This document shows positions 3,967 to 53,836 of a stretch of DNA of 56,956 nucleotides, piece after piece. Numbering within the stretch: position 1 is the first letter of the stretch; each line of letters opens with the position of its first letter. Where the stretch lies: the IMG/VR virus record IMGVR_UViG_3300022602_001935, positions 1 to 56,956 of that record; one strand, written 5' to 3'. A program made the translations under genes and the position numbers. The DNA is from a virus. The notes under the pieces are model-generated. The model saw nothing but the letters and a program-made list of their open reading frames with translations, was not told the origin of the DNA and searched no databases.

Positions 3967-4527
3967 ATGTATAATTTTATAAAAAGAGTCATTCAAGAAG
4001 GAAAAGGACACGAGCCTTTAAAACAAATTTCTTTAGATTACGATCGAAAAGAATTGGATCCTGCACTCAGTGAAGACGCCCTAGATTATCATTACGGCAA
4101 ATTATACAAAGCCTATGTTGATCGATTTAACAAAGGCGAGGGTGATCCAGACTTTAACGAAGCAGGTGCATTCTTACACAGCATTTACTTTAGTCAGTTT
4201 CAAGAGTACAGTACAGGCAATAAACCGACAGGAACTGCCTTAGAATTCATTGAAAAGCATCAAAAATCTTGGGATAAGTTTAAAGAATCCTTCGAAGAAG
4301 TTGCCATGAAGATACAGGGTAGTGGTTGGGTCTATCTTGCCAAAGACGGCAAAATCAAAACAATTACCAATCACGAAATTAAAAATGATATCATTCTATT
4401 GATAGATTGGTGGGAGCATGCCTGGGCTCTTGATTATCAAGCAGATAAAAAGAAATATCTTGCTAATCAATGGAAGATTGTTAACTGGGAAATCATCAAC
4501 ACAAGACTTCTGCCAATTTCCAAATAA
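3967..4527 (+). CDS. Fe/Mn-family superoxide dismutase
   Basis: 186 aa. All four metal ligands of the Fe/Mn-SOD family can be placed: H42 (with the Y-V eight residues on), H71 (A-G-A-F-L-H), and D147/H151 in D-W-W-E-H-A-W. The C-terminal block with V-N-W is also typical. The enzyme dismutates superoxide in the cytoplasm. Oddities: the usual H-H pair after the first ligand is L-Y here, and the second-sphere Gln of MnSOD (T-A-N-Q) reads as T-N-H136, which could change metal preference or redox tuning. It starts divergently from the minus-strand gene and has no clear ribosome site; GGTAAATA lies just upstream. Confidence 0.85.
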   Translation: MYNFIKRVIQEGKGHEPLKQISLDYDRKELDPALSEDALDYHYGKLYKAYVDRFNKGEGDPDFNEAGAFLHSIYFSQFQEYSTGNKPTGTALEFIEKHQKSWDKFKESFEEVAMKIQGSGWVYLAKDGKIKTITNHEIKNDIILLIDWWEHAWALDYQADKKKYLANQWKIVNWEIINTRLLPISK

Positions 4528-41857: not shown

Positions 41858-44646
41858 TGAGTGGCGTAGCAGGTGCCGATCGTGTAAAAAGTCGTCAAGA
41901 CTTTCAACAGTTCTTAAAATCTTACAAAGGTCTGATCAGTCAGTTCCCTGGATTTGTAAGTTTAAATCCCAGCGGTAGTTATAACAGCAATCTTGAGAAG
42001 AATGACTTTGGTGATATAGATCTTATTGTTCATATCCAAAGCGATCAAGACAAAGCCACAGTTAAAAAACAACTACAGGCATTCTTTATGAAACAGCCTG
42101 AAACAGTTATTGTTCCTTTTAGTTCTGCCAAACACGCGGGCAAGCGTAGTTACAACGCAGGTGAATTGGTCAGTGTTCGTTATCACGATGATCACTTAGG
42201 TTATTCAGCACAGATTGACAACATTGTGGCATTAGATCAAAAGGAAGCAGGATTCAAACAGCAGTTCTTAGATTGGCCCGCTGAAAAGCAAGGCCTAATA
42301 TTAGGTTTAATTAAAATTGCCGCAATTGAAACTGATCCAAGAATTCTGTTTAAGAAATTAGGCATACCTGATCCAGGCCCTCTTGAAGAAGGTCAGGAAT
42401 ATGAATTCAATCTTAGTTCAGTAGAACTTCAGTTAAGAAGAATTACCTACAAGCCAGGTACTTACGAACAATTGGGCAGAGAAGTCCTTTGGAATAGTAG
42501 AGACTTTGAAGACATACAAAAGTTATTGTATCAATATAACTTAAACGCAGACTTTGACCAACTATTAGCACAGGCCAAACAGGTAATAAAGAATCCACGT
42601 AGTAATGCAAGGATGCAGGGTGTGTTCTCAAGTATGATCACAGTCAAGAGCGGAGAAGTAGGTACAGCCAAAGGTGCTGGCAAAGAAGCCGCATTGGCCA
42701 AGATACAGAATACATTTAGAGAATCACGTAGCCTGCTACATGCTCTAACAGAATCTGTAAATCCAGGAACTATTGTATTTGCGTTTGGAAGACTACAGCC
42801 TCCTACAATTGGACACGAAATACTTGTCAATACAGTTAAGCAGGTAGCAAAACAAAATGGTTGTCCTTACATTATCTATATCAGCAAAACAGTTGGCAAG
42901 AGTCCGGCAGATAAATTAAAAAATCCTCTCACTGTAGATCAAAAGATGATGTACTTAGGAAAGATGTTCCCAGGTACACACTTTGCTCCGGCTACTGATC
43001 AAGTTCGTACTCCTATTGAAGCCGCTAAATTCCTAAATCAAAAGTATCAAAATCTTATTCTTGTAGCAGGCGGTAGTCGTGCTGAAGAATTTGATAAACT
43101 GTTAAATGACTACAATGGTAGAGACTATAATTTTGATAGCATTCGTGTTGTTAAGATCGATAGAGATCCCGATGCCGATGATGCTTCGGGTATGAGCGGA
43201 ACTAAAATGCGTCATGCGGCCATGGCTGATGACTTTGAAGCATTTAGATCAGGACTGCCAGGAGCATTAGATGATGCTACAGCACAACAACTTATGCAGG
43301 ATGTGAAAGCCGGTATGACTCCAACACCTAAAATTAAAAAAACAAAAGAAGCAATGTTGCCCACAAGTGCGTTTGCTGGATCTAAGAAAAACAAATTAGG
43401 ACCAGCAGGACAGTGGAAGAACACAGGACCAAGTAAGAATCGTCCAGCAAGAGCAGGCGACTTAGTAGGTGGTGCCGCCGAAAGTATTGAGTTAGATGAA
43501 TCTAACGATATTAAAGGTACATTAAGAACAATTGCCAACGATATTGGCGAACCTGTCACTAATGTATATGAAACACTCAAGCATATGGCCAAACGTTTTT
43601 ATGATAGTCACGGAGACCTGAAAGGGTTCGGCATGGTGGCAGGCGGAGTAGGCGGGCGCTGGTTCCAAACATTTTATTTCAACAGACTACAGAATGAATT
43701 GTTTGACCTAAGTAAACAGAATACAAAAATTACAGTACCTTTACAACAGTTTTTACGAGGTGTAGAAGTCAAAGGCAAAATTGAAAATGCCAAAGGTTTT
43801 AGTGCTATTAGTAAAGAACTTCCAGATATACTTGCTGATATAGGTACTAAAATAGGATATGCTCCTTTGGCTAACAATGCTCGCCGTTGGATTCACCATA
43901 GAGAAGAATACGAACAGTACCTAAGTGATTTAGAATTAAGTGATTATGAAGATGACGATGATTTAGATTCTGTACCCAAAACTCCTAAAGATCCAGAGAT
44001 GGGCAAACAGCGTAGTCAAGCAGAAGATATTGTCAATGATGTTTTAAGAAAACTACCGAGTAGAATTGCTGGCGATATTCGCAATGCTATTGCTCGTGCA
44101 CCAAACAAACTACAGGCCTTACAACAAGAACTACAAAAACGTGGTGTTAAGGTTCCTATGGAAAACATGGCTGGTGTAGGAGATATGGATAATCCAGAAT
44201 TTAATGCTGTGTATGAAGCCAAAGCCACAAAGACAAGACTTGATCCAAGTTGCTGGAAAGGCTATCATAAAGCAGGTACCAAAGTCAAAGGTGGTACAAG
44301 AGTCAATAACTGTGTGCCCAATGAAGCCGCTAATCCTGCGCAACAGGCCGCTATTGCTATTGCTAAAAAGAAAAAGCGAGGCACAACAGAAGCAGACGAT
44401 ATAGAACATGGATACCCTATGATGGCTACAGAACACAAGAAGGGTGTTAAGGCTGTTAAATATACTAAGAAACCTAAAGGTATTGAACCACCGAAACCCA
44501 GAAATTTTGTTGCTAAGAACGCAGTAATGGGCGGTGCTGGTGCTCATAAGAATAAGAAAAAAGAAGCAAAGCATAAACATGTAGAGATCGGTGAGGCTTG
44601 GGAACGAGAAATGGCTCGTGCTATTAGACTTTTGGAAAATAAATAG
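41857..44646 (+). CDS. Large fusion: pol-beta-type nucleotidyltransferase plus HxGH nucleotidyltransferase
   Basis: 929 aa. Domain 1: G40-S41 ... G-D53-I-D55-L, a pol-beta-type nucleotidyltransferase like the preceding protein. Domain 2, about 305-460: F-G-R-L-Q-P-P-T-I-G-H and S-G-T-K-M-R, the motifs of NMN-adenylyltransferase or cytidylyltransferase. Then a helical region, and a basic tail with C-W-K-G-Y-H-K-A-G-T-K and N-N-C-V-P, a motif I recall from many phage proteins. Sites fitting the prohead-protease rule fall at the borders: A-L-T-E299/S before domain 2 and E-L-D-E548/S after it. Likely a packaged polyprotein; the substrates are unknown. Confidence 0.65.
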   Translation: MSGVAGADRVKSRQDFQQFLKSYKGLISQFPGFVSLNPSGSYNSNLEKNDFGDIDLIVHIQSDQDKATVKKQLQAFFMKQPETVIVPFSSAKHAGKRSYNAGELVSVRYHDDHLGYSAQIDNIVALDQKEAGFKQQFLDWPAEKQGLILGLIKIAAIETDPRILFKKLGIPDPGPLEEGQEYEFNLSSVELQLRRITYKPGTYEQLGREVLWNSRDFEDIQKLLYQYNLNADFDQLLAQAKQVIKNPRSNARMQGVFSSMITVKSGEVGTAKGAGKEAALAKIQNTFRESRSLLHALTESVNPGTIVFAFGRLQPPTIGHEILVNTVKQVAKQNGCPYIIYISKTVGKSPADKLKNPLTVDQKMMYLGKMFPGTHFAPATDQVRTPIEAAKFLNQKYQNLILVAGGSRAEEFDKLLNDYNGRDYNFDSIRVVKIDRDPDADDASGMSGTKMRHAAMADDFEAFRSGLPGALDDATAQQLMQDVKAGMTPTPKIKKTKEAMLPTSAFAGSKKNKLGPAGQWKNTGPSKNRPARAGDLVGGAAESIELDESNDIKGTLRTIANDIGEPVTNVYETLKHMAKRFYDSHGDLKGFGMVAGGVGGRWFQTFYFNRLQNELFDLSKQNTKITVPLQQFLRGVEVKGKIENAKGFSAISKELPDILADIGTKIGYAPLANNARRWIHHREEYEQYLSDLELSDYEDDDDLDSVPKTPKDPEMGKQRSQAEDIVNDVLRKLPSRIAGDIRNAIARAPNKLQALQQELQKRGVKVPMENMAGVGDMDNPEFNAVYEAKATKTRLDPSCWKGYHKAGTKVKGGTRVNNCVPNEAANPAQQAAIAIAKKKKRGTTEADDIEHGYPMMATEHKKGVKAVKYTKKPKGIEPPKPRNFVAKNAVMGGAGAHKNKKKEAKHKHVEIGEAWEREMARAIRLLENK
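44638..44645 (+). promoter_or_regulatory. Candidate late promoter before module gene
   Basis: AATAAATA overlapping the previous stop, 5 nt before the ATG at 44651. No ribosome site is seen downstream of it. Confidence 0.35.
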
Positions 44647-44650
44647 TATT

Positions 44651-46474
44651 ATGAAAATAGATCAATTATTCGAATCAGGTGACGATTTAGCATCTCAGTT
44701 TGCTCAGATGGCTAAAGATAAAGGCATGAATGTTAGAGTTCGTGGAACCCCAGATCAAGAACGACAACGTACACAAGATATGTTGGCGCAACGTCGTTCT
44801 GATCAAGAAAAACAAAGTCAATTAGCAGGTGAAAAAGATTTTGCTAATCTTGACCAACTTGAAGCCGAATATGCAAAAATGAAAGACGAATATCAATCAT
44901 TAGGCGGATCTAATTGGCAGTATGCTGATCGCGAACAGAATCTATCAGCCAGCGAACGCAAGGCCCGCAGTATGGAAGACGGACTAAGAGCACTATGGTC
45001 GAGAATTCAACGTGCTAAGAAGTATAGTGGCGGTGTGGCGGAAGCACATGATCCTAAATTTACAGGATTCATGAATAAAGCATTAGGCACACGCCAAGAT
45101 GCAAAACCGCAGTCATACGATCCAAATACCACAATGACTTTTGATAATATGCCAGGCTACAAACATGCGTTTAAGTTTGGTATGAATATTATTAAAAAGA
45201 TGGACCCAGATACTAAGGAACACTTTGCAAATGCAAGTGACAATACATTGTTAAGTTACATGATCGATATTGCCGAGAAAAAAGGTTTTATTCCAAAGTA
45301 TTTTGTAGAAGAAGATTTAGACGAAGTTACCCAATGGTTTGATGAACAATTTCACGATCCTGAAATGGAAGGTTGGAGTTGGGCTGATTTATTAAGAGAT
45401 ATGATTGGTCAGGAACCTAATGCCGCAAATAGAGCGGCAGCTCAATCACATAAACAAATGATGGCTAAATCACAAGCGGCTAAAGATAAACCTGAATCAA
45501 TAGATCCAACTAAATTAAAAGTAGTAGATCGTACAGATACTGGAAAATCAGAGATATGGTATCCGCACGGTGACTTTTTTGGTACATCATCTTGGGCCGT
45601 AGTACAAGACGGATTCAAAGATAAAGCTCATGCTGAACATGCCCTAAAACAACTTAAGACTAATCCTAATATTGTCAACATCATAAAAAAGGCTATTGCA
45701 GATGAAGGTTTGGCGGAGGGCGATGACCGAACCGTTGCCAATATCAAAAACTACGAGAGAGAATTGGCCAAATATAAAAAATTCAATGCCAATGGAGCAC
45801 ATGATGTCAAAATTAAAAATCTTGAAAAAATCATAGCCCACTTGAAATCAAAACAAGGTGTGGCGGAAGGCGATGCTCTTGCTGATTTTTTAGCAAAGGG
45901 CGGAAAAATTCATCAATTACCTTACAAAAAACCACGCAAGGCTGATAAAACAGATTATGGTAGCAAACATATTGGCGGATCTGGTGACAAAATGAAAAGT
46001 AGTCGAACTGGAAAAGCCGCCAAGACACAAGGCACTAAAGTAGTTGGCGTAGGAGAATCTGCTCCTAAGGGATGGGAAGGTACAGTTAAAGCAATGAAGA
46101 AGCATAAAGAAATTGATAATCCTTACGCTTTAACTAACTGGATGAAAAACAAAGGCTACAAGAGCCACAAAAAAGAAAGCATGGAAAATCATCCTGACGA
46201 GAAAGAAGATAAAGCACTTATTCGTCAGATGGTTAAAAAACAAGCATTGAAACGCGAAAACATGATGGCAAAAGAACAGCATGAAGATCATGAAATATCA
46301 ATGGCCACAAGCGAATTGAAAAATGTTTATATCAATGCTAAAAAATTGTTTGATATTATTAAAAAACGCAGTGAACAAGAAGGGTTAGATGCTTGGCAAC
46401 AGAGCAAAATTACCAAAGCCTCGGATTACTTAAATAGTGTATTAACGGCTATTAGAGGCGAACCACGTAGATAA
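44651..46474 (+). CDS. Modular putative internal virion protein 1
   Basis: 607 aa from ATG at 44651 (an upstream in-frame ATG at 44591 lies inside the previous gene). Starts M-K-I-D-Q-L-F-E8/S. Candidate prohead-protease cuts follow at V-A-E131/A, L-A-E356/G, V-A-E406/G and V-G-E469/S, dividing it into helical, charged modules. The 357-406 module is 50 aa and recurs exactly in the gene at 46847. The C-terminal part (W-E-G-T-V-K-A-M-K-K-H ... N-W-M-K-N-K-G) is a pattern I recall from other phage proteins. No enzyme domain is recognised. Confidence 0.6.
   Translation: MKIDQLFESGDDLASQFAQMAKDKGMNVRVRGTPDQERQRTQDMLAQRRSDQEKQSQLAGEKDFANLDQLEAEYAKMKDEYQSLGGSNWQYADREQNLSASERKARSMEDGLRALWSRIQRAKKYSGGVAEAHDPKFTGFMNKALGTRQDAKPQSYDPNTTMTFDNMPGYKHAFKFGMNIIKKMDPDTKEHFANASDNTLLSYMIDIAEKKGFIPKYFVEEDLDEVTQWFDEQFHDPEMEGWSWADLLRDMIGQEPNAANRAAAQSHKQMMAKSQAAKDKPESIDPTKLKVVDRTDTGKSEIWYPHGDFFGTSSWAVVQDGFKDKAHAEHALKQLKTNPNIVNIIKKAIADEGLAEGDDRTVANIKNYERELAKYKKFNANGAHDVKIKNLEKIIAHLKSKQGVAEGDALADFLAKGGKIHQLPYKKPRKADKTDYGSKHIGGSGDKMKSSRTGKAAKTQGTKVVGVGESAPKGWEGTVKAMKKHKEIDNPYALTNWMKNKGYKSHKKESMENHPDEKEDKALIRQMVKKQALKRENMMAKEQHEDHEISMATSELKNVYINAKKLFDIIKKRSEQEGLDAWQQSKITKASDYLNSVLTAIRGEPRR
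45711..45871 (+). repeat. 161-bp direct repeat, copy 1
   Basis: Identical, base for base as read by eye, to 47019-47179. It is in frame in both genes and codes one 50-aa module plus the flanking V-A-E-G junctions. Confidence 0.9.
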
Positions 46475-46475
46475 T

Positions 46476-46850
46476 ATGAGAGCAAAAGAATTCATAGTCG
46501 AAACTAAACCAGAAGGCAAGATGCACCCACATCATGTTAATGTTCAGCAGGGTGTATCGAGGTCACGCGATGTAGGTGGGTATGATCGTGTGTATCATAT
46601 GAATCGACTAATGATGGCTATGGGTATGGCTGACGGTAAAAGTGAAAAACCTGTAGAGATGGATTCTGCATCATGGACAGAAAAATACAATACACATCAT
46701 CCATATACAGAAGAAGAACACAACATGATCAAGTCTGCGTTGAACACAATTCCCACAGACAGTAAAGAAATTACTCCTTGGTCAAAGAGTATTGAACCAG
46801 ATGATACTCATAAAGTAAGCCCTGTAGCAAATTGGATGAAGAAGAAATGA
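46476..46850 (+). CDS. Putative internal virion protein with MRAKEFIVE start
   Basis: 124 aa. The N-terminus M-R-A-K-E-F-I-V-E9/T closely resembles the T4 internal proteins II and III (M-K-T-Y-Q-E-F-I-A-E/A), whose first ten residues target them into the prohead and are cut off by gp21. The body (R-D-V-G-G-Y-D-R-V-Y-H-M-N-R, M-A-D-G-K-S, Y-N-T-H-H-P-Y-T-E-E-E, D-D-T-H-K-V-S-P-V) is a family I recognise as widespread in phages but without a known function. It overlaps the next start in ATGA fashion. Confidence 0.65.
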   Translation: MRAKEFIVETKPEGKMHPHHVNVQQGVSRSRDVGGYDRVYHMNRLMMAMGMADGKSEKPVEMDSASWTEKYNTHHPYTEEEHNMIKSALNTIPTDSKEITPWSKSIEPDDTHKVSPVANWMKKK

Positions 46851-47785
46851 GAATAAATGATCTACTTGTTGAAACCAAACGCAAAAGTTCTGCTGTAAAA
46901 CTACAAAGTGCTTGGGAAAAGCAACAGGCTAAATCTACTGCCAGTCGCAAGCGTGGCGAAGAATACATGGCCAAGATCAAACAAGATGTTGCTGACAAAT
47001 CAAAGAAAGAGCAAGGTGTGGCGGAGGGCGATGACCGAACCGTTGCCAATATCAAAAACTACGAGAGAGAATTGGCCAAATATAAAAAATTCAATGCCAA
47101 TGGAGCACATGATGTCAAAATTAAAAATCTTGAAAAAATCATAGCCCACTTGAAATCAAAACAAGGTGTGGCGGAAGGCTTGAGTGATACACAAAAGAAG
47201 ATTGAAGATACTATACTCAAACTTGAACAACGATTGAAGTTTGCTAAAACACCAGAACAATGGGATAACATAAAAAATCGCATTGAACGATTACAAGCAG
47301 GGTTGAAGCGTAGTAAGCAAGGTGTGGCGGAAGATTGGCAAAAGGTCAATAGACATGACAAGACCGACGGCCTAAGCAAAAAGGCTGTTAGTGCTTATCG
47401 TAGAGAACATCCTGGTTCAAAATTAAAAACTGCTGTCACAACCAAACCTTCAAAATTAAAGAAAGGTTCTAAGTCTGCTAAACGTAGGGCAAGTTTTTGT
47501 GCTCGTATGAGTGGAATGAAAAAACACCGCACTGGTGCTAAAACAAAACGTGATCCAGATAGCAATATTAATAAAGCACTTCGCCGTTGGCATTGTGAAA
47601 GCATAGAAGAGATGCAGGAACTAATTATGATTGGAGAACAATATATCTCCAAATTAAAAGAAGATGGATCAGCAGGCGGAACAAGTTCCGGGTCTATCGC
47701 CAGTGTATCAATGCCCTTAGGCGGCAAAAAGAAAAAGAAAGGTGGCGGAGTAAATTTACTCGGCGGACCTGTATTCAAACGCTAA
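46847..47785 (+). CDS. Modular putative internal virion protein 2
   Basis: 312 aa from ATG at 46847, overlapping the previous stop. Starts M-R-I-N-D-L-L-V-E9/T. Sites V-A-E60/G, V-A-E110/G and V-A-E162/D delimit a 50-aa and a 52-aa helical module; the first is identical to one in the gene at 44651. The C-terminal half is very basic: S-K-K-A-V-S-A-Y-R-R-E-H-P-G-S-K-L, then S-A-K-R-R-A-S-F-C-A-R-M and R-D-P-D-S-N-I-N-K-A-L-R-R-W-H-C, a likely nucleic-acid-binding region found, from memory, in many phage proteins. It ends in Gly/Lys-rich sequence. Confidence 0.62.
   Translation: MRINDLLVETKRKSSAVKLQSAWEKQQAKSTASRKRGEEYMAKIKQDVADKSKKEQGVAEGDDRTVANIKNYERELAKYKKFNANGAHDVKIKNLEKIIAHLKSKQGVAEGLSDTQKKIEDTILKLEQRLKFAKTPEQWDNIKNRIERLQAGLKRSKQGVAEDWQKVNRHDKTDGLSKKAVSAYRREHPGSKLKTAVTTKPSKLKKGSKSAKRRASFCARMSGMKKHRTGAKTKRDPDSNINKALRRWHCESIEEMQELIMIGEQYISKLKEDGSAGGTSSGSIASVSMPLGGKKKKKGGGVNLLGGPVFKR
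47019..47179 (+). repeat. 161-bp direct repeat, copy 2
   Basis: Second copy of the segment at 45711-45871, offset by 1308 bp, with no mismatch found by eye. The flanking bases differ immediately outside. Confidence 0.9.
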
Positions 47786-47847: not shown

Positions 47848-48117
47848 ATGAGCAAAGTTTTCGGCACCCCTGAACAAACAAAAATCAAACAAATTATTTC
47901 CGAGGGCATGACCGTAATGCAGGAAATCCAAGATCTTACAGAAGGTCTTAATGAAACAATCAAAGCAGTAGCAGAAGAACTCGAAGTCAAACCAAGTGTT
48001 ATTCGTAAAGCAATTCGTATTGCACAAAAAGATCAATGGGATCAAGTATTCCGCGAGTTTGATGATCTTGAAACCATTGTTGATATCAGTGGCCATGCCA
48101 ATCGTAGGGAAGGCTAA
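47848..48117 (+). CDS. DsbA-like small dsDNA-binding protein
   Basis: 89 aa, the size of T4 DsbA (late-promoter dsDNA-binding protein). It shows the same arrangement of an N-terminal helix, a central K-x-V-A-E-E-L-E-V-K-P-S-V-I-R-K-A-I-R-I-A, a K-D-Q-W and an acidic end. T4 DsbA binds upstream of late promoters. It has its own strong promoter and shares a base with the following gene. The match is by pattern, not by strong identity, so another helix-turn-helix protein is possible. Confidence 0.5.
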   Translation: MSKVFGTPEQTKIKQIISEGMTVMQEIQDLTEGLNETIKAVAEELEVKPSVIRKAIRIAQKDQWDQVFREFDDLETIVDISGHANRREG

Positions 48118-48413
48118 TGAATGACCTACTCTACGGAATCTTCCGCTGGATCAGAGAAGATTACAGAAGTCATCCATTACGTTTTTGTCTTGAGATCATT
48201 GCTTGGGCTATATCTATTGGCTGTTCTATCACAATGGCCCTCACCGTGCCTAATCCTCCCCTTCTCATCTTGTACCCAATCTGGATTACAGGTTGTGTTA
48301 TCTATGCTGGGTGTGCTTATAGTCGGCGTTCCTTTGGTATGCTGGCTAATTATGGACTTCTTGTCTCCATCGACTCAGTCGGACTTGTGAGAATGATGCT
48401 GGGCCTACAATAA
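48117..48413 (+). CDS. Small membrane protein before DNA polymerase
   Basis: 98 aa. Two or three hydrophobic helices (about residues 24-42, 46-66, 73-90). Another open frame of similar length overlaps it; this one is preferred because it starts at the previous gene's stop (TAATG) and has normal amino-acid composition. No family is recognised. Confidence 0.5.
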   Translation: MNDLLYGIFRWIREDYRSHPLRFCLEIIAWAISIGCSITMALTVPNPPLLILYPIWITGCVIYAGCAYSRRSFGMLANYGLLVSIDSVGLVRMMLGLQ

Positions 48414-48429
48414 ATATTATCGAGAAAGG

Positions 48430-48453
48430 TTTGATCAGCCACAAATGATCAAA
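48430..48453 (+). promoter_or_regulatory. Upstream hairpin of the polymerase leader
   Basis: TTTGATCA (48430-48437) pairs with TGATCAAA (48446-48453); 8-nt loop GCCACAAA. It is the first of two similar hairpins before the polymerase gene. Confidence 0.6.
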
Positions 48454-48460
48454 TTGGTAT

Positions 48461-48480
48461 TTGTCTGCCGCAAAAGACAA
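48461..48480 (+). promoter_or_regulatory. Putative gp43 translational operator hairpin
   Basis: TTGTCT (48461-48466) pairs with AGACAA (48475-48480); 8-nt loop GCCGCAAA; GGAG at 48481-48484 follows directly and the ATG is at 48492. T4 DNA polymerase represses its own translation by binding a hairpin with an 8-nt loop at this same place, next to the ribosome site. Confidence 0.65.
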
Positions 48481-48491
48481 GGAGAAAAAAT

Positions 48492-51161
48492 ATGAGTTAT
48501 GTCGATGCCATTTGGGATCGCGAGAAGGACATTGTCCACGTCGTTGAAAGAGATCCTAAAAAAGGTAGAGTATATACGGACTATCCAGCCCGCTATGTAT
48601 TTTACTATCCAGATGCTAAAGGTAAGTATCGTTCAATTTTTAATGAACCACTTAACCGAGTCACAGCAAAAAATTACAAAGAATTTGTAAAAGAACAAAA
48701 AACATTTTCCAGTACTCGATTGTACGAAAATGATATTAATCCTATCTTCCGTTGTTTAGAAGAAAACTATCTTGGCAAAGATGCTCCAAAACTAAATGTA
48801 GCATTTTTCGATATTGAGGTGGATTTTGATCCAGAGCGCGGCTACGCATCACCTGATGATCCGTTTATGCCAATTACTGCGATTGCGGTTCACCTACAAT
48901 GGATGGACACAATGGTCTGCCTTGCTCTTCCTCCTAAAACACTAACAATGGAGCAGGCTAAAGAACAGGTTAAAGAATTTCCTAACACGCATCTGTTTGA
49001 TAACGAAGGCGATCTGTTAGAAACATTCTTACAACTTATTCAAGATGCAGATGTACTAAGTGGTTGGAATTCAGAAGGCTTTGATATTCCTTATACAGTT
49101 AATCGTGTTATCAAAGTTCTCAGCAAAGAAGACACAAGACGTTTTTGTTTGTTTGACAAGTTTCCTAAGAAACGTGAATACGAAAAATATGGCAAAACAG
49201 CAGAAACTTATGACCTAATTGGTCGCGTACATATGGACAGTTTAGAATTGTATCGCAAGTATACATATGAAGAACGACACAGTTATAGGCTTGATGCTAT
49301 TGCTGAACATGAATTAGGTGAAAAGAAAACACAATACGAAGGCACACTTGATCAACTGTACAACAATGACTTTAAAAAGTTTATCGAATATAACAGACAA
49401 GACTGTGCGCTACTTGACAAATTAGATAAGAAATTAAAATTTATCGATCTTGCTAATACAGTGGCTCATGAGAATACTGTGCTATTGGCAACCACAATGG
49501 GTGCAGTGGCTGTAACTGAACAGGCGATTATCAATGAAGCACATCATAGAGGTATGATTGTACCAAGTCGTCCTAAGCGTGATGAAGATATTAGTAATCA
49601 GGCCGCAGGTGCGTATGTTGCGTATCCTAAAAAAGGCTTACATGACTATATAGGTTCAATGGATATTAACTCACTGTATCCTTCTGTGATTCGCGCACTT
49701 AACATGGGCCCAGAAACTATTATTGGTCAATTGCGACAAGATTATACCAAAGCAGAAATTGAAGCCAAGATTGCCAAAGGAGATTCGTTTGCCGCGGCAT
49801 GGGAGGGAAAGTTTGGTAGTAATGAATACGAACTTGTAATGAGCAAAGATCGTGCTAAAGAAATTATCATCGATTGGGAGTCTGGCAGTACAGATATTCT
49901 ATCAGGCGCACAGATTTATGAATTGATATTTGAAAGTAATCAACCATGGATGCTGAGTGCTAATGGTACAATTTTTACACACGAAGTAGAAGGCGTGATT
50001 CCCGGACTACTAAAACGTTGGTATGCTGAACGTAAAGAGATGCAGGCCAAACTTAAAGAATCAATTAAGGCGGAGAACAAAATTGAAGAAGAATACTGGG
50101 ACAAACGACAACTTGTCAAAAAAATTAATCTTAATAGCCTTTATGGTGCTATTCTCAACGTTGGGTGCCGTTTTTTTGATAATCGTATCGGGCAGTCTAC
50201 CACCCTTACAGGCCGAGGAATTGCTAAACATATGGCCGCTAAAATTAACGAAGTAATTACAGGGGAATATAATCATATAGGCAAATCAATTATCTATGGT
50301 GATACAGACTCTGCATACTTCTCGGCATATAGCACACTAAGGCGTGAAATTGAAAAGAAAGAAATCCCTTGGGACAAAGACAATGTTATTACCTTGTATG
50401 ATACAATTGCCTCGGAAGTAAATTCAACATTTCCACAATATATGTTAGAAGCACACCACTGTCCCAAGAGTCGTGGCGAAGTGATTAAAGCAGGTCGTGA
50501 GATTGTGGCTATCAAGGGTCTGTTCATTACTAAGAAACGTTATGCTGTATTGTATTATGACAAAGAAGGCAAGCGTCAAGACGTAGATGGTAAACCTGGT
50601 AAGATCAAGGCCATGGGCTTAGATTTGAAACGATCTGATACTCCAGAATTTATGCAGAAGTTCTTAGAAGAAGTTCTTACTAAAGTTCTAAATGGCAGTC
50701 AAGAAGCAGAGATTCTCGATATGATATCAGAATTTAGAACTGAATTCAAGGCTCGCCCTGGTTGGGAAAAAGGTAGCCCTAAACGTGCTAACAACATCAC
50801 TGACTATCAGGATAAAGAAAAGAAATCAGGCAAAGCAAACATGCCCGGCCATGTACGTGCGTCTATTAATTGGAATACACTAAAACGCATGAATGGCGAC
50901 AAATACAGTCAGCAGATTGTTGATGGCATGAAAGTTATTGTCTGTAAGGTAAAAGATAATCCACTAGGATTTACAAGTGTTGCTTATCCTGTAGATGAAC
51001 TTAGACTACCTAAATGGTTTCAGGATCTGCCATTTAATCATGCAGAGATGGAAGCAACCATCATCAACAACAAATTAGAAAATCTAATCGGCGTTCTGGA
51101 GTGGGACTTAGAATCCACTACGCAGAACAATACATTCAACCAATTGTTCAGTTTTGAATAA
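48492..51161 (+). CDS. 43: Family B DNA polymerase (T4 gp43-like)
   Basis: 889 aa (T4 gp43 is 898). The 3'-5' exonuclease is intact: Exo I F-F-D107-I-E109, Exo II G-W-N-S-E-G-F-D-I-P-Y, Exo III Y-N-R-Q-D-C. Polymerase motif A is D-I-N-S-L-Y-P-S, motif B K-K-I-N-L-N-S-L-Y-G, motif C Y-G-D-T-D-S near residue 604, then K-K-R-Y. The last residues (F-N-Q-L-F-S-F) form a C-terminal clamp-binding tail like that of T4. It replicates the phage genome with the downstream sliding clamp. Two leader hairpins suggest autoregulation. Confidence 0.96.
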   Translation: MSYVDAIWDREKDIVHVVERDPKKGRVYTDYPARYVFYYPDAKGKYRSIFNEPLNRVTAKNYKEFVKEQKTFSSTRLYENDINPIFRCLEENYLGKDAPKLNVAFFDIEVDFDPERGYASPDDPFMPITAIAVHLQWMDTMVCLALPPKTLTMEQAKEQVKEFPNTHLFDNEGDLLETFLQLIQDADVLSGWNSEGFDIPYTVNRVIKVLSKEDTRRFCLFDKFPKKREYEKYGKTAETYDLIGRVHMDSLELYRKYTYEERHSYRLDAIAEHELGEKKTQYEGTLDQLYNNDFKKFIEYNRQDCALLDKLDKKLKFIDLANTVAHENTVLLATTMGAVAVTEQAIINEAHHRGMIVPSRPKRDEDISNQAAGAYVAYPKKGLHDYIGSMDINSLYPSVIRALNMGPETIIGQLRQDYTKAEIEAKIAKGDSFAAAWEGKFGSNEYELVMSKDRAKEIIIDWESGSTDILSGAQIYELIFESNQPWMLSANGTIFTHEVEGVIPGLLKRWYAERKEMQAKLKESIKAENKIEEEYWDKRQLVKKINLNSLYGAILNVGCRFFDNRIGQSTTLTGRGIAKHMAAKINEVITGEYNHIGKSIIYGDTDSAYFSAYSTLRREIEKKEIPWDKDNVITLYDTIASEVNSTFPQYMLEAHHCPKSRGEVIKAGREIVAIKGLFITKKRYAVLYYDKEGKRQDVDGKPGKIKAMGLDLKRSDTPEFMQKFLEEVLTKVLNGSQEAEILDMISEFRTEFKARPGWEKGSPKRANNITDYQDKEKKSGKANMPGHVRASINWNTLKRMNGDKYSQQIVDGMKVIVCKVKDNPLGFTSVAYPVDELRLPKWFQDLPFNHAEMEATIINNKLENLIGVLEWDLESTTQNNTFNQLFSFE

Positions 51162-51949: not shown

Positions 51950-52317
51950 TGTTAAAAGGCATTTTACAGAGTAGTCAGTATATAACCGTAACCAACGGAA
52001 CTGCTATGACACCGTACATCCCTTCCGGGGGTCAAGGTGTTGGGATGCTTAGATACAACACTATGGCCAATTGCATAGAAGTATATGATGGTGCAACTTG
52101 GAAAGAACTGGCTAATACCCTGGCCAGTGTTGATCTATCTTATGAAGTACAAGAAACTATAAGGTGGGCAAAGGCTAAAATGACAGAAGAAGCCAATCTT
52201 AAAAAATTAGCCGACGATCATCCTGCTGTAAAAATTGCCTTGGACAATTTAGAACGTGCCAAACAACAATTAGATGCTACAATAATATTAAGTAAAGAAC
52301 ATGAACCAACCAGTTAA
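51949..52317 (+). CDS. Small protein with fibre-type N-terminal domain
   Basis: 122 aa from ATG at 51949 (a TTG at 51946 is also in frame). Residues 10-55 (Y-I-T-V-T-N-G ... G-M-L-R-Y-N-T ... E-V-Y-D-G-A-T-W) have the pattern of short beta modules at phage fibre ends; the rest is a charged helix. It is odd to see this between replication and nucleoside genes. Function unknown. It overlaps the transglycosylase gene by 17 nt. Confidence 0.5.
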   Translation: MLKGILQSSQYITVTNGTAMTPYIPSGGQGVGMLRYNTMANCIEVYDGATWKELANTLASVDLSYEVQETIRWAKAKMTEEANLKKLADDHPAVKIALDNLERAKQQLDATIILSKEHEPTS

Positions 52318-53836
52318 CCTAACCCCTCTACAGAAAGATTACGCTGTATATCTTCCTGCTATCTCCTCATTTTATTCTACGTATGTTGCTAAACAACGAT
52401 TAGAAGAATTTGTTCCTACAGATCGTATTCCTAAAGGTTTTGATCGCGGCGTTGAAGGAATGAACTTTCTTAACCCCGAACAAGGCTATTTTTACTACAA
52501 ATATGCTCTGTATTCAGCAGGTCATGCACAGTTAGATTTGAATAAAAGCCTAACACAAGAATCAATGATTCAACAACGTGATCGCGGTAATACTATGATC
52601 CTTGGTGATTCAGGTGGATACCAGATTGGTAAAGGTGTTCTTAAATTTGATTGGTTAGATTTTGAAGGCGCAAGTGCTAACAAAACTCGTCAAAGTATTC
52701 TTGAATGGTTAGAACTAACTGCTGATTGGTCAATGACACTTGACGTTCCTACTTGGGCGTGTGATCATATTCATAGTCCTAAAACAGGATTGAAAACATT
52801 TGAAGACTGTTTAGATAAAACAAGATTTAATAATGAATATTTCCTAAAGAATCGTTTAGGACAAACTAAATGGCTTAACGTGCTACAAGGTTCAGATTGG
52901 GAGACTGCTGAAAAGTGGTACAATGGTGTTAAAGAATTTAGCGATCCTGCTGTATGGGAAGATAAAGCCTGCGAAGGTTGGGCCTTCGGTGGTGCTAATA
53001 TGTGTAAAATGGATATTACTCTTAAACGTCTAATGACGATGAGAGAAGAAGGAATGCTTACCGGTAAGAATTGGATTCACTTCTTGGGTACTGCACAGTT
53101 AGATTGGTCATGCTATCTAACTCTAATTCAAAGGCAAATCAGGAAACACATCAATGAAGAACTTACCATATCTTTTGACTGCGCATCACCGTTCATCGCA
53201 ACAGCGCACGGACTTGTCTACACCAACGCACAACACAATCCAAAAAGGTGGAGCGTTATTATGGACAAAGCCCCAGATAACAAAGCCCTTGCAGAATCAG
53301 ATATTCCCTTCCCCTTTGAAAGCGAATTCGGACGCAGAATGACAATGGGAGATATTTGTTACTATGCTCCGGGCGACCTAAATAAAATAGGCAAAGAAGG
53401 TAAAACTTCGTGGGATAGTTACAGTTATGCTCTTATGATGGGTCATAATGTCTACTGTCATATCGTTGCTGTACAACGTGCTCAACAATTAATGGATATT
53501 GAAACTACTAAACATAAACTCAATTGGAGATTGTCCGGCATTGAAGGTAAGAAAGAAAAAGAATACAGTGATTGGGTTCCACGCAGAATCTTATACTTTG
53601 CTAATTTTATTGAAGAACTGTTTAACACAAAAACAAAAGCAGAAGCGTTCCAAATGATTGAAGACGGACTGTCATTCTTGCGTAGTTTAGAAGGTGCTCG
53701 ACTACAAGGCGGTCCTGCTCAAAATACATTTGGTACTTTGTTTACTGTTGAAGACGGTTTAAATCAAAATGAAATTGATTTTAGTAATCCAGATGACGAT
53801 AAAGTAAGAGAATTAGAAGAAGGCATTAGAGAATGA
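52301..53836 (+). CDS. tRNA-guanine-transglycosylase-family enzyme (DpdA-like candidate)
   Basis: 511 aa. The TGT barrel motifs appear in order and at TGT-like spacing: D103-S-G-G-Y-Q (family D-S-G-G-F-Q), L-D148-V-P, L-Q196-G, G230-G231 and F-D293-C-A-S-P, matching the known substrate and nucleophile positions of bacterial TGT (D102, D156, Q203, G230, D280). The C-x-C-x2-C zinc site is not seen and a 200-residue C-terminal region is added. Phage and island DpdA enzymes are TGT relatives that put preQ0-type bases into DNA, so DNA modification is the leading guess; tRNA modification is the alternative. Two co-operonic genes follow, one T-fold-like. Confidence 0.75.
   Translation: MNQPVNLTPLQKDYAVYLPAISSFYSTYVAKQRLEEFVPTDRIPKGFDRGVEGMNFLNPEQGYFYYKYALYSAGHAQLDLNKSLTQESMIQQRDRGNTMILGDSGGYQIGKGVLKFDWLDFEGASANKTRQSILEWLELTADWSMTLDVPTWACDHIHSPKTGLKTFEDCLDKTRFNNEYFLKNRLGQTKWLNVLQGSDWETAEKWYNGVKEFSDPAVWEDKACEGWAFGGANMCKMDITLKRLMTMREEGMLTGKNWIHFLGTAQLDWSCYLTLIQRQIRKHINEELTISFDCASPFIATAHGLVYTNAQHNPKRWSVIMDKAPDNKALAESDIPFPFESEFGRRMTMGDICYYAPGDLNKIGKEGKTSWDSYSYALMMGHNVYCHIVAVQRAQQLMDIETTKHKLNWRLSGIEGKKEKEYSDWVPRRILYFANFIEELFNTKTKAEAFQMIEDGLSFLRSLEGARLQGGPAQNTFGTLFTVEDGLNQNEIDFSNPDDDKVRELEEGIRE

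Follow-up and report, generated by a model that had tools for sequence, protein, structure and literature searches.

The window analysed here, a stretch of 56,956 nucleotides of viral DNA, contains a gene for a family B DNA polymerase (48492-51161) whose start codon is the ATG at 48492. A pair of hairpins is located between this gene and the upstream open reading frame (ORF) at 48117-48413 (Table 1). An initial annotation had described two perfect stems of 8 and 6 bp, both with 8-nt loops, the second adjoining a GGAG ribosome site. Our analysis confirmed this arrangement at 48430-48453 and 48461-48480, with GGAG directly following the second stem. The extent originally assigned, 48430-48491, does hold the hairpins, but the element starts at the GGT of 48428-48430, and a second GGT at 48456-48458 had been missed.

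Table 1. Features of the polymerase leader and their coordinates in the window
Feature	Position	Strand	Sequence	Remarks
T4-late-promoter-like octamer	48409..48416	+	AATAAATA	Overlaps stop of upstream ORF
Whole tandem element, both predicted pseudoknots	48428-48480	+		
Hairpin 1	48430-48453	+	Stem TTTGATCA 48430-48437, loop GCCACAAA 48438-48445, stem TGATCAAA 48446-48453	8 bp, no mismatch
Predicted pseudoknot 1, whole	48428..48451	+	GGU / U / UGAUCA / GCC / ACAAA / UGAUCA	
Unit 1, S1 5' strand	48428..48430	+	GGU	Partner: loop GCC 48438-48440; GGY/AGY swap data
Unit 1, S2 5' strand	48432..48437	+	UGAUCA	Covarying stem; partner: 48446-48451
Unit 1, S1 3' strand	48438..48440	+	GCC	GGY/AGY swap data
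Unit 1, L3	48441..48445	+	ACAAA	Consensus AUAAA; both middle As invariant, 172 distinct units
Unit 1, S2 3' strand	48446..48451	+	UGAUCA	Stem covariation
Hairpin 2	48461-48480	+	Stem TTGTCT 48461-48466, loop GCCGCAAA 48467-48474, stem AGACAA 48475-48480	6 bp, no mismatch
Predicted pseudoknot 2, whole	48456..48480	+	GGU / AU / UUGUCU / GCC / GCAAA / AGACAA	
Unit 2, S1 5' strand	48456..48458	+	GGU	Partner: GCC 48467-48469; no mismatched combination, 311 leaders
Unit 2, S2 5' strand	48461..48466	+	UUGUCU	Stem covariation
Unit 2, S1 3' strand	48467..48469	+	GCC	GGY/AGY swap data
Unit 2, L3	48470..48474	+	GCAAA	Consensus NNAAR; both middle As invariant, 142 distinct units
Unit 2, S2 3' strand	48475..48480	+	AGACAA	Adjoins Shine-Dalgarno; stem-to-SD gap, 198 leaders
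Shine-Dalgarno (SD) of polymerase gene	48481..48484	+	GGAG	Directly 3' of hairpin 2
Family B DNA polymerase (gp43-like), 889 aa	48492..51161	+		Pfam DNA_pol_B 1.2e-38, DNA_pol_B_exo1; phrog_262 3.7e-197

Other features of the window were also observed. Octamers with a TAAATA core, resembling T4 late promoters, occur at 4523, 4574, 21309, 24052, 30209, 34410, 39964, 44638, and 48409, and most of them shortly precede a start codon. The neighbouring ORFs at 44591-46474 and 46832-47785 have a duplicated segment in common (GDDRTVANIKNYERELAKYKKFNANGAHDVKIKNLEKIIAHLKSKQGVAEG). A 511-aa ORF at 52301-53836 shows TGT/DpdA-like motifs by eye (DSGGYQ and GWAFGGANM) and had no Pfam, PHROG, or PDB sequence match; it possibly encodes a 7-deazaguanine DNA modification enzyme.

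Stem covariation in related leaders

By itself, the window leader has a fold that is just mildly unusual compared with shuffled sequence: its energy of -15.9 kcal/mol (z = -1.85) was equalled by 10 of 200 shuffles. Since a single sequence barely outperforms its shuffles, the case for a structure rests on comparative evidence from relatives. A polymerase scan of viral contigs yielded 80 loci with 74-86% polymerase identity, and all 80 carry two hairpins at the equivalent site; more scans brought the collection to 392 distinct leaders.

In an analysis of 26 leaders, paired stem cells amounted to 92.3%, compared with 67.3% in shuffles, and double changes were present at nine of the ten stem pairs. 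The covariation score was 0.783, against 0.313 for shuffled leaders and at most 0.15 when the partner was slid; none of 500 shuffles matched it, and shifting the partner by one column destroyed the pairing. RNAalifold recovered both hairpins unaided. When only the loop was used to place the units, the four innermost stem pairs were 81–97% Watson-Crick (172 and 142 distinct units for units 1 and 2). Compensatory stem changes around a constant loop core, RCC-NN-AA, were found in 311 of the 392 distinct leaders, all from related uncultured phages. On the polymerase tree, the stem type changed with pairing preserved at least 48 times in unit 1 and at least 80 times in unit 2. G.U wobbles outnumbered A.C combinations by 13:1 in distinct stems, which indicates that the folding molecule is RNA of the plus strand.

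These comparisons show that both hairpins are real and far from chance, although they make up just the readily visible half of a more extensive structure. The pattern of differing stems and conserved loops noted in the initial annotation holds among the relatives, in which the stems covary and the loops are conserved.

Predicted pseudoknots at the ribosome site

A GGY triplet is located directly 5' of each stem and is complementary to the RCC of the loop. In unit 1, every GCC loop was accompanied by GGY (155/155) and every GCU loop by AGY (5/5); a smaller set of unit 2 gave the same result (194/194 and 2/2, respectively). The larger set of unit 2, comprising 311 leaders, contained 265 GGY:NCC and 46 AGY:NCU combinations and no mixed ones. 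Repeat scoring of unit 2 without a preference for matched pairs found a G available for 264 of 264 C-type loops and an A for 46 of 46 U-type loops. The match between loop C or U and upstream G or A was exceptionless in approximately 160 units for unit 1 and in 311 leaders for unit 2, and the loop type switched independently on the polymerase tree at least four times in each unit. This exceptionless co-change implies that the loop RCC pairs with the upstream GGY, as in an H-type pseudoknot.

Each unit is thus predicted to be a small H-type pseudoknot with the plan GGY - L1 - variable stem - RCC - NNAAR - complementary stem. S1 consists of 3 bp, L1 of 1–4 nt, and L3 of 5–6 nt with two invariant As; S2 has mostly 4–7 bp, and 3 bp in clade B, a sister clade described below. 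The A-rich loop is positioned where it could cross the S1 groove. A description as plain twin hairpins was rejected as incomplete, since the conserved upstream GGY covaries with the loop. Loop conservation, which had first been read as a sign of protein binding, is partly due to this pairing and is therefore no evidence of protein recognition on its own.

In 193 of 198 leaders, 0–3 nt separate the stem of unit 2 from the SD. The unit 2 of clade B has a compact form, and the NGG of its 3' stem strand is itself the start of the GGAG; this SD-containing stem is CCG:CGG in 46 cases, CCA:TGG in 10, and mismatched in 1. Upstream of the element, TAARTA, which resembles T4 late promoters, was found in 250 of 311 leaders, compared with 41 of 311 shuffled ones, and is clustered 65–90 nt before the start codon, which suggests that the element heads a late transcript. 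If the octamer at 48409..48416 serves as a promoter, the transcript would start a few nucleotides before pseudoknot 1.

An extra ORF is present between the element and the polymerase gene in L190 (reverse strand, 53 aa), L210 (62-63 aa), L575 (20 aa), L590, L591, L594, and L607 (short ORFs in all of these) and in L129 and L529. The element stays at the head of such leaders; that of L210 was identified by reading. With an ORF in between, the first controlled cistron is not the polymerase gene, unless translation is coupled. Some of the short ORFs are Cys-rich and in places they overlap the polymerase start codon; they are possibly leader peptides translationally coupled to the polymerase. In L129, approximately 650 nt upstream of the polymerase gene, a 218-aa ORF, sulfotransferase-like by eye, separates a clade-B-type element from that gene, and the stem of the element overlaps the ribosome site of this ORF.

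Distribution and gene specificity

The polymerase tree, with 183 rows, recovers the clade that includes the window as monophyletic (support 100), and all or nearly all members of this clade have the element. Some members of the sister clades B, around L420, and C, around L371, also have it, and approximately 10 changes between presence and absence are placed on the tree. Leader and element are both missing from many clade C phages, in which the polymerase gene begins where the preceding gene ends. The position held by unit 1 in the window clade is occupied in clades B and C by a different covarying hairpin, CG-stem-loop-stem-ANG, seen in L505-L584 and L585-L664 approximately 40–75 nt before the polymerase gene with conserved flanks (GAGTCG...CATG). 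Separately, approximately 900 nt (1006-1930) interrupt the polymerase gene of L120 after residue 114, perhaps as an intron or homing element.

Across 2.9 million viral contigs, two exact-pattern scans found at least 277 matches in the fetched loci, a count in which overlapping loci from one contig are included repeatedly. Among the matches listed, all 277 are upstream of this family B polymerase: tblastn found the polymerase downstream in 275, and the other two lie at the end of a contig, with the N-terminus of the polymerase readable there. With a covariance model, the window and seven large main-clade records each gave one strong copy, before the polymerase gene; no second copy was found in these sequences, the next-best match having an E value of 0.36 or worse. 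In the clade B record G010, the best match (E 0.2) was its own polymerase leader. Three relatives of 229–327 kb, scanned whole, have the pseudoknots only before the polymerase gene, with other matches at chance level. A genome-wide regulon was rejected, as no copies above chance were found elsewhere in the window or in the whole relatives scanned.

Among cultured PolB relatives, whose polymerase identity is at most 51%, the element was not found in the polymerase leaders of Phosso, Atu_ph07, SCTP-2, 121Q, RaK2, GAP32, Vibrio 2.275.O, PA5oct, XacN1, or Munch; some cultured jumbo relatives have a terminator-like or G+C-rich hairpin in this leader instead. Its absence from these cultured relatives and from many clade C leaders indicates that the polymerase does not need the element.

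Candidate mechanism and comparison with known operators

Comparison of the relatives establishes the fold, through covariation in both helices, together with the contact with the ribosome site and, among the matches listed, the confinement to the polymerase gene. From these features, the polymerase mRNA is very probably under translational control, and the leader element probably limits the amount of polymerase made. The operator proposed in the initial annotation accordingly survives as a conserved cis-acting RNA at the ribosome-binding site, exclusive to PolB among the matches listed, but formed by predicted pseudoknots and not by hairpins. Because the fold explains much of the sequence conservation, conservation points to no particular ligand. 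In T4 and RB69, gp43 represses translation of its own mRNA via a leader hairpin that overlaps the ribosome-binding site (PMC3014915), and its binding to this leader and to DNA is mutually exclusive (PMC3014915, PMC535899). The polymerase is therefore the leading ligand candidate.

We infer the following mechanism of repression. The polymerase mRNA would start with tandem H-type pseudoknots acting as a translational operator, of which unit 2 adjoins the SD, so that the folded and occupied element would exclude the 30S subunit. The ligand is most likely the DNA polymerase itself, whose RNA binding would compete with primer-template DNA, and surplus free polymerase would thereby repress its own synthesis. 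The two units probably provide cooperative or higher-affinity binding. By analogy with T4, we lean towards this full mechanism, in which polymerase bound to its own leader at a tandem pseudoknot operator represses its own synthesis. Whether these leaders constitute a new RNA family for polymerase self-repression, with a doubled, SD-contacting pseudoknot and a unit 1 exchangeable in sister clades, we regard as evenly balanced.

Another phage protein, such as a gp32-like SSB, a RegA-like repressor, or the product of 47848-48117, might bind the tandem pseudoknots and repress the polymerase. The last is a small DNA-binding-type protein (phrog_639/12534) encoded two genes upstream, and gp32 binds the one proven phage pseudoknot operator, whose UAAA repeats are reminiscent of the AUAAA loop (PMC535899). 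This explanation is unlikely, since an autoregulated SSB would require a copy beside the SSB gene, and many copies would be required for a global repressor, whereas the whole relatives have a single strong copy before the polymerase gene.

Slightly less likely is a ligand-free structure that sets translation by occluding the SD, by standby, or by sensing temperature, or that keeps a late transcript from being degraded at its 5' end. The wide variation of stem stability and sequence, with the pseudoknot geometry preserved, argues against such a role; moreover, a simple stabiliser needs no two pseudoknots, and confinement to the polymerase gene is unexpected because other window genes have similar promoter octamers. 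On the other hand, the fold accounts for all strongly conserved bases, clades B and C have an unrelated hairpin in place of unit 1, and the element is just 3' of the late-promoter-like octamer, where the transcript presumably begins.

A small H-type pseudoknot that has an A-rich loop and sequesters the SD is a common design among riboswitches, and a tandem layout would suit a riboswitch in which each pseudoknot binds a nucleotide-type metabolite, tying polymerase synthesis to precursor supply. We consider this improbable: no family of Rfam 15 matched 48300-48600 above its gathering score or at E up to 10; in the matches listed and the whole relatives scanned, the strong copy precedes the polymerase gene only, never metabolic or transport genes; and the sole invariant unpaired bases are As, likely stacking on S1. 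Although inverted repeats near replication genes can serve as origins, a DNA-level role of the paired repeats as a replication or transcription site is strongly disfavoured and hardly credible, given the 13:1 excess of G.U over A.C, the strict spacing to the SD and start codon, and a crossed-pairing covariation that is meaningless in duplex DNA.

Autogenous leader-RNA control of phage replication proteins is a classic system, but it is based on few T4 relatives, and among such leader controls a pseudoknot was previously known for gene 32 only. Our study describes a polymerase-specific pseudoknot element across hundreds of uncultured phages, in which natural variation fixes the fold by covariation alone. 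The stem swaps, AGY:GCU swaps, SD-in-stem versions, losses, and inserted ORFs form a variant panel suited to studying the ways in which a DNA polymerase could recognise the mRNA that encodes it, and a 2010 review reported no structure of a gp43-RNA complex (PMC3014915).

The tandem pseudoknots share features with three known systems. STAXI motifs (RF01728) are tandem pseudoknots near SSB, topoisomerase, and other DNA-handling genes (PMC2864571), and the present element is likewise repeated in tandem near such a gene. However, STAXI is enterobacterial and usually has three repeats and UUCG tetraloops; it was rejected as an identification, as its model matched neither the window nor the 327 kb relative G001 at E up to 10. 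In the literature searched, mostly without subscription papers, we found no tandem phage pseudoknots and no polymerase leader pseudoknot.

Like the gene 43 operators of T4, RB69, and RB49, the element is a leader RNA directly 5' of a phage family B polymerase gene, at the ribosome-binding site. The likeness of its 8-nt loops to T4, drawn in the initial annotation, is weak, since the T4 and RB69 operators carry UAAC and give no evidence of a pseudoknot; the RB49 operator loop has UAAA (PMC3014915), which recurs in the commonest loop here, AUAAA. Those operators are one hairpin with a UAAC or UAAA loop approximately 40 nt upstream, in contrast to the two covarying pseudoknots here with crossed GGY:RCC pairing and compensatory changes. 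Polymerase binding is proven for T4 and RB69; here it is putative and proposed from sequence.

The gene 32 protein, gp32, uses a leader pseudoknot (PMC535899), considered in the 2010 review possibly the sole viral pseudoknot in translational autoregulation (PMC3014915). As in the gene 32 leaders of T4, T2, and RB69, an H-type pseudoknot is predicted here before a phage replication gene, with covariation of both S1 and S2. The gene 32 pseudoknot is single, lies 67 nt upstream, and has on its 3' side an unstructured AU-rich tract that gp32 coats, whereas the present element is tandem and at the SD; and whereas the former precedes an SSB gene with a downstream UUAAA-repeat tract, all 277 matches listed here precede PolB. 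By the features compared, the element would work like the gene 43 and gene 32 operators and belongs to neither; it appears to be a new RNA element of a familiar kind, the translational operator of phage replication genes, in a form without a described precedent at gene 43.
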